64,000 bases of DNA from an uncultured Pelagibacteraceae bacterium (GTDB lineage: Bacteria > Pseudomonadota > Alphaproteobacteria > Pelagibacterales > Pelagibacteraceae), in assembly GCA_902595125.1 (NCBI GenBank), contig CACJOY010000004.1, positions 1 through 64,000 on the forward strand, read 5' to 3'. Shown piece by piece: positions 18,974 through 59,240 of this stretch. A program made the position numbers and the translations under genes. The stretch's first letter is position 1. The number at the start of each line of letters is the position of its first letter. The notes beneath the pieces are model-generated. The model was given only the letters and a program-made list of their open reading frames with translations. It did not search any database and was not told where the DNA came from.

Positions 18974-19007
18974 GGCTGTTGACTCTCATTATCGATCTTG
19001 CTGTAAT
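18974..19007 (+). promoter_or_regulatory. Promoter of the PotD-like binding protein gene
   Basis: TTGACT at 18979-18984, a 17-base spacer and TGTAAT at 19002-19007 make a near-consensus sigma-70 promoter 35 bases before the true start codon. The 19 bases 18974-18992 match 17 of 19 positions with the region upstream of tmoX. The promoter falls inside the ORF-track extension of the binding protein, which argues against that longer start. Confidence 0.8.
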
Positions 19008-19041
19008 TGGTTTTTATAAAAAACGTTTAAACGGAGGAAAA

Positions 19042-20163
19042 ATGAAAACAATTAGTAAATTATTACTAGCCATTTCTTTTGCTATCTCTGTAACTACTTC
19101 AGCATTTGCAGTAACTGCAGTGTCTTGGGGTGGAGCTTACACAGAGTCTCAAAAGTTAGGTTATGGTGATCCTACTGGTAAAGCCCTTGGTATAACAATC
19201 AATTGGGTTGATTATTCAGGTGGATTATCTGAGATCAAAGCGCAAAAAGAAGCTGGCAAAATTACGTGGGATATAATCGACGTATTTGCAATGGACACTA
19301 TCACAGGATGTGACGAAGGATTATTTGTTGAGTTTGATTTCGACAAAGACTTTCCACCCGCACCAGATGGAACTCCAGCAAGTAAAGATTTCTTTACTGC
19401 TATGCCAAGTAAATGTGCTGTAGGAAATATTCTATATTCTTGGAACTATGCTTATAACTCAGAAAATGTTAAAGGCACTCCAAAGACTATCAAAGATTTC
19501 TTTAACACAAAAAAATTTCCTGGCAAAAGAGCTATCTACAATAGCGCTCTAACAAATTTAGAGATCGCTTTAGCTGCAGATGGTATCAAACCTGGAAAAG
19601 GTGGAGCAAAAATCTACAAAGCTTTAAACACAGAAAAAGGTGTTGATAGAGCTATGAATAAGATCAAAGAATTATGTACAGATCCAAAAGGTGGATGTGT
19701 ATTTTGGTCTGCAGGTGCTCAACCACCAGAATTATTAATGAGCGGTGAAGTTGTTATGGCAACTGGTTGGAATGGTAGATTCTTTAACGCTATCGTTGGA
19801 GAAGGTGCACCACTAGTTCAAGTATGGGATGGACAAGGTCTTGACTACGAATACTTCGTACAAGTTAAGGGTGGACCAAACGATGCTAATGGTATGGCTA
19901 AAAAAGCTTTAGCTATGATGACTAGCACAGAAATGTTAGCAGGAAGTGCGAAATATATCGCATACGCTCCTTGGAGAAAATCTTCTATAGCTATTATGGA
20001 AGCAGGAGAGCCGTGGTATAAAGATGGTAAGACTAATATGGTACCACAAATGCCAACTGCACCAGCTAATACTAAAAATTACTTCTTAGTAGATCCACTT
20101 TACTGGGCTGACAACGGTACAGAGCTTGGTGAAAAATGGGAAGCTATGAAAGCTGGTCTATAA
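19042..20163 (+). CDS. ABC transporter substrate-binding protein (PotD-like)
   Basis: A 373-residue periplasmic binding protein for the adjoining importer. I start it at 19042, not at the ORF-track TTG at 18979. ATG there follows a strong GGAGG, opens a normal signal peptide (MKTISKLLLAISFAISVTTS, then AFA) and leaves the promoter non-coding. The mature part begins VTAVSWGGAYTESQK, typical of SBP_bac_8 polyamine-type proteins. Four cysteines (GCDEG, KCAVG, LCTDPKGGC) may form disulfides. Codons here are less A/T-ended than in neighbours (many ATC, TTC), which suggests high expression. The gene is followed by a strong terminator. Ligand unknown; ectoine-like compounds fit the neighbours. Confidence 0.92.
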   Translation: MKTISKLLLAISFAISVTTSAFAVTAVSWGGAYTESQKLGYGDPTGKALGITINWVDYSGGLSEIKAQKEAGKITWDIIDVFAMDTITGCDEGLFVEFDFDKDFPPAPDGTPASKDFFTAMPSKCAVGNILYSWNYAYNSENVKGTPKTIKDFFNTKKFPGKRAIYNSALTNLEIALAADGIKPGKGGAKIYKALNTEKGVDRAMNKIKELCTDPKGGCVFWSAGAQPPELLMSGEVVMATGWNGRFFNAIVGEGAPLVQVWDGQGLDYEYFVQVKGGPNDANGMAKKALAMMTSTEMLAGSAKYIAYAPWRKSSIAIMEAGEPWYKDGKTNMVPQMPTAPANTKNYFLVDPLYWADNGTELGEKWEAMKAGL

Positions 20164-56735: not shown

Positions 56736-56769
56736 GGGTGTTGACTATCATTATACTTAGGCACATACT
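56736..56769 (+). promoter_or_regulatory. Promoter of tmoX
   Basis: TTGACT at 56741-56746 with a 17-base spacer to CATACT (56764-56769) gives a sigma-70-like promoter 59 bases before the tmoX ATG. The block 56736-56754 (GGGTGTTGACTATCATTAT) matches 17 of 19 bases with the block upstream of the other binding protein gene at 18974-18992. The divergent tdm start is 37 bases away on the other strand, so an operator here could control both. Confidence 0.75.
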
Positions 56770-56799
56770 AGATATCATAATATTAAGAAAGGGGAATAA

Positions 56800-57744
56800 A
56801 TGCGAAAAATAATATCGTTAATTTCTGCAGTTATAATTTCAGCAGTAAGTTTTGCTGGACTATCAAATGCAGATAGCAAAAAACCCATAGTTATTCCAAC
56901 ACACAACTGGTCAAGTCAGATTGTAATGGCTTATGTTATTGGTGGAATAATGGAAGATATGGGAAATAATGTTAAATACGTTAATGCTGACTCACAAGCA
57001 GTATATGAGTCAATCAGAATTGGTGACGTAAGTATCTCACACGAAGTGTGGGAATCTGCTTTTGGTAAATCATTTACAACTGCTTTAGATAAAGGCGGCT
57101 TACTTGACTGGGGAGATCATGAAGCAAGAACTCTTGAGGATATGGGTTATCCAAATTGGGTTGCTGAAAAAGGATTATGCCCAGGATTACCAGACTGGAC
57201 TGCTTTAAAAAATCCAGACTGTGCTAAAAACTTTACAACACCTGACTCACCAGATGGAAAAGGAAGGATGTTGGAAGGTCCACAGACTTGGCATGGTGAC
57301 TTAATCCCACAAAGAGTTGACGCTTTAGGCTTAGGAGATCTTTGGTGGGTTAAATTTGCTGGAAGTGCAGACGCGCTATGGGCAGAGCTAGCAGCAGCTG
57401 AAAAAGAAGGAAGAGGAACAATCATCTTTAACTGGACACCAAACTTTACGGATGGTGCTGGTTTTACATTTATCGATTTTCCTCCATACACAGCTGGTTG
57501 TAGACCAGAAGATGGTGGAGATGGAAAATGCGGTTCACCAGATGGTTATTTGAAAAAAGCAGTTAACGCTGATTTTCCAAAAACTCATCCAGATGCAGCA
57601 GCTATGTTTAAAAAACTTTCTTTCACAACAAGTCAAATTGGTGCAATGGCAGCTTTAGTTGATGTCGACAAAATGACTCATGAAGATGCTGCAAAAGCAT
57701 GGTTAAAAAAGAACAAGAAAGTTTGGAAAGCTTTTACTAAATAA
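56800..57744 (+). CDS. tmoX: TMAO ABC transporter substrate-binding protein
   Basis: A 314-residue periplasmic protein of the OpuAC type, matching TmoX, the TMAO receptor. A signal peptide covers about 1-24 (ending SNADS). The mature domain starts KKPIVIPTHNWSSQIVMAYV and includes SHEVWESAFGKSF, GPQTWHGDLIPQRVDAL and FNWTPNFTDGAGFTFIDFPPY, with aromatic residues of the kind that form a cation-binding box for methylated amines. Cysteines (KGLCPG, DCAKNF, GCRPEDGGDGKCG) may form disulfides. Many C-ended and Gly-rich codons suggest high expression. It has a GGGG ribosome site and is followed by a terminator. Glycine betaine is the alternative ligand. Confidence 0.9.
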   Translation: MRKIISLISAVIISAVSFAGLSNADSKKPIVIPTHNWSSQIVMAYVIGGIMEDMGNNVKYVNADSQAVYESIRIGDVSISHEVWESAFGKSFTTALDKGGLLDWGDHEARTLEDMGYPNWVAEKGLCPGLPDWTALKNPDCAKNFTTPDSPDGKGRMLEGPQTWHGDLIPQRVDALGLGDLWWVKFAGSADALWAELAAAEKEGRGTIIFNWTPNFTDGAGFTFIDFPPYTAGCRPEDGGDGKCGSPDGYLKKAVNADFPKTHPDAAAMFKKLSFTTSQIGAMAALVDVDKMTHEDAAKAWLKKNKKVWKAFTK

Positions 57745-57816: not shown

Positions 57817-58278
57817 ATGATTAAATATTTTTTAAGTATATTCATAAGTTTATTATTTTTTAATCAATCTTTAGCAAAAGATATTAGCATAAATGAAAAT
57901 ATTGATCTCCAGTTTGTTTGTGATTTAGAAAAAAAAATAATCAAAAATTCAGAATATAATTATCAAACTTTTTTAGCTGAAGATTTGAATGAGAAAGGTT
58001 TAGATAGATTTAAAATTTTATCAAAAAAACCAGAAACACTTTTGATTAAAGGATTATCATCATTTCTTTCAGACTCAGCAAAACTTAATGTTAAAGTAGT
58101 CAATAAAGATGTAGTTTTATTCAAGTCAATAGATCAAAATAAAAATTATTCTGAGTCTGGTATTATCACAAGGAAAACAGGTGAATTAATTCATGAAATA
58201 ACAAAAAATATCAAAAGTGAAAACTCCGAAAAATATATTTCAATTTATTCATGTAATAAAGATGACAAAAAAGTATAA
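57817..58278 (+). CDS. Small secreted protein of unknown function
   Basis: A 153-residue exported protein with a clear signal peptide (MIKYFLSIFISLLFFNQSLA, cleavage near 20). The mature part is charged and Lys/Asn-rich (INENIDLQFVCDLEKKIIKNS). It has only two cysteines (FVCDLE and YSCNKD), which could form one disulfide. I do not recognise a family. It is the first of three small genes between tmoX and tmoW, and it begins soon after the tmoX terminator, so its expression is likely low. Confidence 0.75.
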   Translation: MIKYFLSIFISLLFFNQSLAKDISINENIDLQFVCDLEKKIIKNSEYNYQTFLAEDLNEKGLDRFKILSKKPETLLIKGLSSFLSDSAKLNVKVVNKDVVLFKSIDQNKNYSESGIITRKTGELIHEITKNIKSENSEKYISIYSCNKDDKKV

Positions 58279-58307
58279 TTTTTTTTATTAATTTCGTGTA
58301 AAATATT

Positions 58308-58688
58308 ATGATGAAAAAATATCTATATATTATTATTTTAAGCTTACTTGTTAGTTCAGGTGCGCTAGCACGAAGCACAGGATGTAAAGAAGGAAATTGT
58401 GAAAATGGTTTTGGCAAATGGGTTTATACGGATAAAACGACTTATGAAGGTGAATGGGTAGGCACTAAGAAAAACGGCCAAGGAGTTGAAACTTGGCCCA
58501 ACGGATACATCTATAAAGGTGAGTTTAAAAATAGTGAATGGAGTGGAGAAGGTGTTTTAACTTTTCCGGACGGCTCAACTTATAAAGGTGAATGGGCAAA
58601 AGGATTTATGAATGGGCAAGGCACTTTTACTTCATCAGATGGAAACCAAAAATCTGGCATATGGAAAAATGGAAAGTTACAAGAGTAA
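58308..58688 (+). CDS. Secreted MORN-repeat protein
   Basis: A 126-residue protein with a signal peptide (MMKKYLYIIILSLLVSSGALA, cleavage near 21) and three to four MORN repeats. The repeats run TYEGEWVGTKKNGQGVETWP, then IYKGEFKNSEWSGEGVLTFP, then TYKGEWAKGFMNGQGTFTS. A cysteine pair near the mature N terminus (GCKEGNCENG) may form a disulfide or cap. MORN repeats form elongated beta-sheets that bind proteins or lipids, and a membrane- or envelope-associated scaffold is the inferred role. The next gene begins at the base after its stop. Confidence 0.85.
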   Translation: MMKKYLYIIILSLLVSSGALARSTGCKEGNCENGFGKWVYTDKTTYEGEWVGTKKNGQGVETWPNGYIYKGEFKNSEWSGEGVLTFPDGSTYKGEWAKGFMNGQGTFTSSDGNQKSGIWKNGKLQE

Positions 58689-59240
58689 ATGTCAAAAGAA
58701 AATTTTTTAAACAGAATAAAATATTTACCCTCAACTACAAAGCAGTTTGGTGGTCTAGTACTAATAATTCTTATTATATTTTCCTCTTTTTTTGCATTAA
58801 ATATAATGTTTGGTGGAGGAGATGAACTTGTGAGAAAAATGAAACTAGAAGAGGAGAGGATCGCTCAAGAAAAAAAATTAAGTGAGTTGATATCTAAACT
58901 ACCTTCAGGAATTTTGGTAACTTTTGACGGTACAGATCACTACAAGTTAACAGATGAAGTTTATCAGCAAGTATGTAAAGCTACAAAATTAATTCCACAA
59001 CGTGCAATTATGGGGGCAAATTTTCTTAATTTTAGGGCACATGAAATTTATACAATTAATGGTAATAAAATTGATGAAACATTTGTTAAGTGGGATGAGG
59101 AGAAAAATAAGTGTTTTGCAGGCTTTACTGTGAGTGGAAACAATGTTGGAGTTGACGAGTCAATAACTGTAAGTGGTGAAGCACTAAGTTTTTTAAGCAC
59201 CGGAATTGATACTAGAGTTTATTATATTAAAAATTTTTAA
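58689..59240 (+). CDS. Single-helix membrane protein of unknown function
   Basis: A 183-residue protein with a basic N terminus and one membrane helix at about 17-38 (FGGLVLIILIIFSSFFALNIM). A charged coiled segment follows (VRKMKLEEERIAQEKKLSEL), then an extracytoplasmic domain with two cysteines (QVCKATK, NKCFAGF). I do not recognise it. It starts immediately after the MORN gene and lies 63 bases before tmoW, so all three inserted genes are likely on the tmo transcript. Confidence 0.75.
   Translation: MSKENFLNRIKYLPSTTKQFGGLVLIILIIFSSFFALNIMFGGGDELVRKMKLEEERIAQEKKLSELISKLPSGILVTFDGTDHYKLTDEVYQQVCKATKLIPQRAIMGANFLNFRAHEIYTINGNKIDETFVKWDEEKNKCFAGFTVSGNNVGVDESITVSGEALSFLSTGIDTRVYYIKNF

Follow-up and report, generated by a model that had tools for sequence, protein, structure and literature searches.

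Two binding-protein genes in one stretch of SAR11 DNA, potD and tmoX, are preceded by almost identical 19-base blocks, and the question arises whether these blocks represent a common regulatory site, the trace of a copying event or parts of two ordinary promoters. The stretch, referred to as the window, spans 64,000 nucleotides of a Pelagibacteraceae (SAR11) genome of 1.18 Mb in 21 contigs.

The 19-base block and its genes

The match is defined by the following features, the blocks having been located by direct reading and pattern search:

18974..18992, forward strand: potD 19-base block, GGCTGTTGACTCTCATTAT
19042..20163, forward strand: gene of a PotD-like periplasmic binding protein, 373 aa (Pfam SBP_bac_8, 5.1e-26)
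56736..56754, forward strand: tmoX 19-base block, GGGTGTTGACTATCATTAT
56800..57744, forward strand: gene of a TmoX-like binding protein of the OpuAC family, 314 aa (Pfam OpuAC, 3.1e-38)

A potA-type ATPase gene (TIGR01187 potA above cut-off) is situated 5' of the gene of the PotD-like protein, which itself has no NCBIfam match, and two permease genes also lie beside it. The TmoX-like gene, named here after the first-pass annotation and after PMC5069720, where the opuAC gene of HTCC7211 is called TmoX, is divergent from a DUF1989/GCV_T gene, and a proV-type ATPase gene together with a permease gene is found further 3'. Three genes (57817-59240 of the window) separate tmoX from its ATPase gene; two of them encode proteins of 153 aa and 183 aa for which neither Pfam nor NCBIfam gave a match, the third a MORN-repeat protein of 126 aa.

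The first-pass annotation had reported that the blocks agree at 17 of 19 positions and stand at similar distances from their start codons. Both statements are exact: the blocks share the sense orientation, and relative to the ATGs, which stand at 19042 (potD) and 56800 (tmoX), they begin 68 and 64 bases upstream and their TTGACT hexamers 63 and 59 bases upstream, respectively. Searching the window at up to three mismatches gave no third match, the number expected by chance being 0.01 in shuffles, a figure that ignores that both sites are promoters. Without TTGACT, the flanks of the two blocks agree at 11/13 positions, which, with the base composition found upstream of genes, has a chance of about 1e-4 per promoter pair. 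The box statistics were drawn from 864 kb of the genome (stretches of 800 kb plus the window), a sample in which the TTGAC[AT] sites form 276 pairs; among these, 0.03 such flank matches are expected. Since a second, unrelated pair, consisting of an ilvE-like gene and a gene of no assigned identity, equally reaches 11/13, the flank match of potD and tmoX is uncommon, but not unique.

Conservation at orthologous promoters

Upstream regions from same-genus genomes and named loci were reduced to 108 distinct regions for potD and 50 for tmoX, both counts including sequences picked for closeness to the window and the tmoX set containing one row (L224) that is probably misplaced. The promoter elements and their occurrence in these regions are as follows:

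18979..18984, forward strand: potD -35 box TTGACT, exact in 107/108 regions
18985..19001, forward strand: potD spacer of 17 bp, holding CTCATTAT of the 19-mer; 17 in 108/108, with 15-20 allowed by the search pattern
19002..19007, forward strand: potD -10 box TGTAAT, seen as a conservation footprint; exact in 64/108
19033..19037, forward strand: Shine-Dalgarno-like GGAGG of potD, by direct reading; in 103/108
56741..56746, forward strand: tmoX -35 box TTGACT, in 42/50 regions and missing in its exact form from the other 8
56747..56763, forward strand: tmoX spacer of 17 bp, containing ATCATTAT; 17 in 41/41 regions with both boxes legible, with 16-18 allowed by the search pattern
56764..56769, forward strand: tmoX -10 box CATACT, seen as a conservation footprint

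To judge from these sequences, what persists across both orthologue sets is a core of the sigma-70 type, TTGACT-17-(-10 box). TTGACT matches TTGACA at five of six positions, the spacing lies within 16-18 bp throughout, and the -10 boxes, whose position is conserved, match TATAAT at 5/6 (TGTAAT) and 4/6 (CATACT). Both promoters thus resemble the RpoD consensus TTGACA-17-TATAAT in -35 box, spacing, -10 box and distance to the start codon, whereas they differ from it in the sixth -35 base, which is T instead of A. Within the -10 box, potD departs from the consensus at position 2 and displays a TGC ahead of the box, the TG resembling that of an extended -10, whereas tmoX departs at positions 1 and 5. 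A strict consensus promoter scan found no site around potD, because it requires A at position 2 of the -10 box. In two genomes from another family of the order, the TGTAAT of potD is legible, the -35 box is poorer and a leader element described below, AACGTTTAAACG, is missing.

The bases which lengthen the block beyond the -35 box are partly maintained at potD and not maintained at tmoX: TCATTAT is exact in only 29/108 potD and 2/50 tmoX regions and TGTTGACT in 88/108 versus 9/50. The view that the block is more than a generic promoter fails on this point, since outside TTGACT the orthologues do not maintain the match.

The same comparison bears on the proposal of a shared operator, according to which a global regulator would act on GGSTGTTGACTMTCATTAT at both promoters and co-regulate the uptake of polyamines and TMAO. 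The 17/19 identity with no further match in the window, the similar distances to the ATG and the coding of binding proteins by both genes would fit such a site, but only the -35 box is kept at both orthologous promoters, and the dyad symmetry of the block is weak (TGA-N3-TCA). Moreover, the two sites do not track each other within genomes. Both promoters could be anchored in 38 genomes, corresponding to 28 distinct pairs (two of the tmoX anchors, in G024 and G219, are misplaced), and block identity amounts to 17/19 in the window genome and to 7-14/19 in the other 37. Averaged over the distinct pairs it is 11.1 within the same genome versus 10.9 across genomes; 12% of shuffles reach the same-genome mean, or 27% when the window genome is left out, and no covariation of the two sites is detected over all 19 positions. 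For the eight spacer positions alone, the signal is reached by 4% of shuffles with and 10% without the window genome.

A genome-wide search, recommended at the outset as a check, gave 24 occurrences (8+16) of the 15-base core at up to two mismatches versus 22 (12+10) for a reversed-pattern control, and therefore no regulon is visible. Other genomes contain 11 exact matches to TGTTGACTNTCATTAT, every one with CTC, the form of the potD promoter; where a located potD was available for comparison, the match stands 64-65 bases before that gene. The shared operator is thus largely refuted by the orthologue data and must be considered very improbable.

An equally improbable origin of the likeness is recent copying, in which recombination would have duplicated one promoter segment onto the other gene in this lineage. 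A donor did exist, as the potD form TTGACTCTCATTAT is present in a potD subclade. However, close tmoX relatives carry TTGACTATCATTTTAC, one substitution from the form in the window, so that a single point change along with upstream drift would suffice, and the identity of the two blocks ends abruptly on both sides, which likewise argues against copying.

The explanation preferred here, with high confidence, is that each of the two highly transcribed genes has an ordinary promoter of the sigma-70 type, independent of the other, that the block comprises its -35 box and the first half of its spacer, and that the additional identity is most likely coincidence. Vegetative RNA polymerase, presumably with the housekeeping sigma factor, would read TTGACT, a fixed spacer of 17 bp and the -10 box, namely TGTAAT with TG upstream at potD and CATACT at tmoX, and transcription would start about 24-28 nt before the ATG, the exact start site being a prediction. 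As the extra bases are unmaintained in either orthologue set, the additional identity (GG.TG upstream of the -35 box and TCATTAT in the spacer) most likely reflects a coincidence of one species. This coincidence is not compelled, given that about 0.03 cases of an 11/13 match between flanks would be expected among strict promoter pairs, and for the first spacer bases the weak same-genome signal counts against it.

TTGACT boxes elsewhere and transcription

In the 864 kb sample, TTGAC[AT] is located 40-110 bases before the start codons of dctP, znuA, potD and tmoX, and likewise precedes genes that appear, from reading their N-terminal sequences, to be rplU, rpsM, typA, mraZ, ilvE and katG. The box therefore behaves as a housekeeping -35 element that is not specific for binding proteins. 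TTGACT upstream of genes is mildly enriched (13 versus 7.8 expected, with 13 on the antisense strand as well). Among the listed TTGACT sites at 40-110 bases before a start codon, four out of ten precede binding-protein genes, giving a hint of an association. A bias of TTGACT towards such genes had been suggested by 400 kb plus the window and was rejected when the larger sample added apparent ribosomal-protein, typA, mraZ and katG genes.

Information on transcription is available for the same two genes in a different strain, Candidatus Pelagibacter HTCC7211 (Hou et al. 2016, PMC5069720). When the protein-coding genes of HTCC7211 are ranked by in situ start-site reads, potD takes the 1st and opuAC/tmoX the 5th place (PMC5069720, Table 2). 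If each gene span in that table begins at the start site and ends with the stop codon, the two leaders in HTCC7211 would measure about 24-31 nt, which is consistent with predicted starts about 7 nt downstream of the -10 box in the promoters described here.

These ranks lend some weight to the idea of a high-expression class, in which a near-consensus GTTGACT -35 box with 17-bp spacing would mainly serve abundant transporter genes while other promoters have a weak -35 box. The box is also carried by dctP and znuA, and [GC]TTGACT occurs seven times sense-upstream, versus 1.8 expected. However, the antisense count upstream is nearly equal (6), and the boxes before the apparent rplU, rpsM, typA and mraZ show that binding-protein genes have no exclusive claim to it. 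Such a class is conceivable though doubtful, and it refines the explanation by two ordinary promoters rather than contradicting it. Of the enhanced core promoter for high-level expression that the first-pass annotation had offered as a second option, the high expression stands, in line with the HTCC7211 ranks and in a plain sigma-70-type form, while the specificity for binding-protein genes does not.

Upstream of znuA, at about 13080-13145 of L104 (about 133080-133145 of contig C1), GTTATATTATTACACAGTGTTATATTATAAC directly follows the TTGACT -35 box. It resembles a Zur-type operator lying over the start site and is a putative site of this kind.

Palindromes in the leaders

Each of the two genes displays a palindromic element in its leader, positioned after the predicted start and ahead of the Shine-Dalgarno sequence, and the two palindromes are unrelated to each other:

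19022..19033, forward strand: potD leader element AACGTTTAAACG with the palindromic core CGTTTAAACG, exact in 105/108 regions
56776..56787, forward strand: tmoX leader element CATAATATTAAG, a copy of CTTAATATTAAG with one mismatch

Of 73 same-genus genomes, 50 (its own included) contain exactly one copy of the potD element and none contains two, and it occurs nowhere else in the sampled part of its genome. CTTAATATTAAG is the form present in most tmoX orthologues, being exact in 36/50 regions and matched with at most two mismatches in 42; the 14-base form CTTAATATATTAAG is seen in 4/50, and CTTAATATTAAGNAAGGG occurs at most once per genome. Judged by these counts, the leader palindromes, absent from the first-pass annotation, are better conserved than the 19-base block.

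Two variants were observed in relatives. In the tmoX palindrome variant ATTAATATTAAT both ends are changed together. A potD subclade (L055, L057-L062) possesses an extra palindrome, ATATAAATTAATTTATAT, between the -10 box and AACGTTTAAACG, by which the leader is lengthened.

Several candidate identities were examined. A LacI-family operator was rejected for the potD palindrome, as PF00356 is absent from its own and 12 further same-genus genomes while control genomes were positive. A structured leader RNA or hairpin was likewise rejected, the window leaders folding no better than shuffles (fold z-scores of -0.5 and -1.1). A search of the window against Rfam gave no match at gathering score and a single chance-level match around the potD leader, and a literature search on the potD palindrome found no paper.

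The palindromes may act as DNA operators or as elements of translation initiation. A common architecture can tentatively be envisaged, in which a strong TTGACT-17 promoter is combined with a gene-specific palindrome near +1, and each palindrome might serve a separate regulator as its only operator site. It is the leader palindromes that deserve a further look.

In conclusion, the comparison shows which bases of the SAR11 potD and tmoX promoters are under constraint, and it cautions that a likeness between two copies within one window can disappear when orthologues are compared. If the common architecture proved true, two of the most abundant SAR11 transcripts would each possess a dedicated switch, in contrast to the frequent description of SAR11 as lightly regulated.
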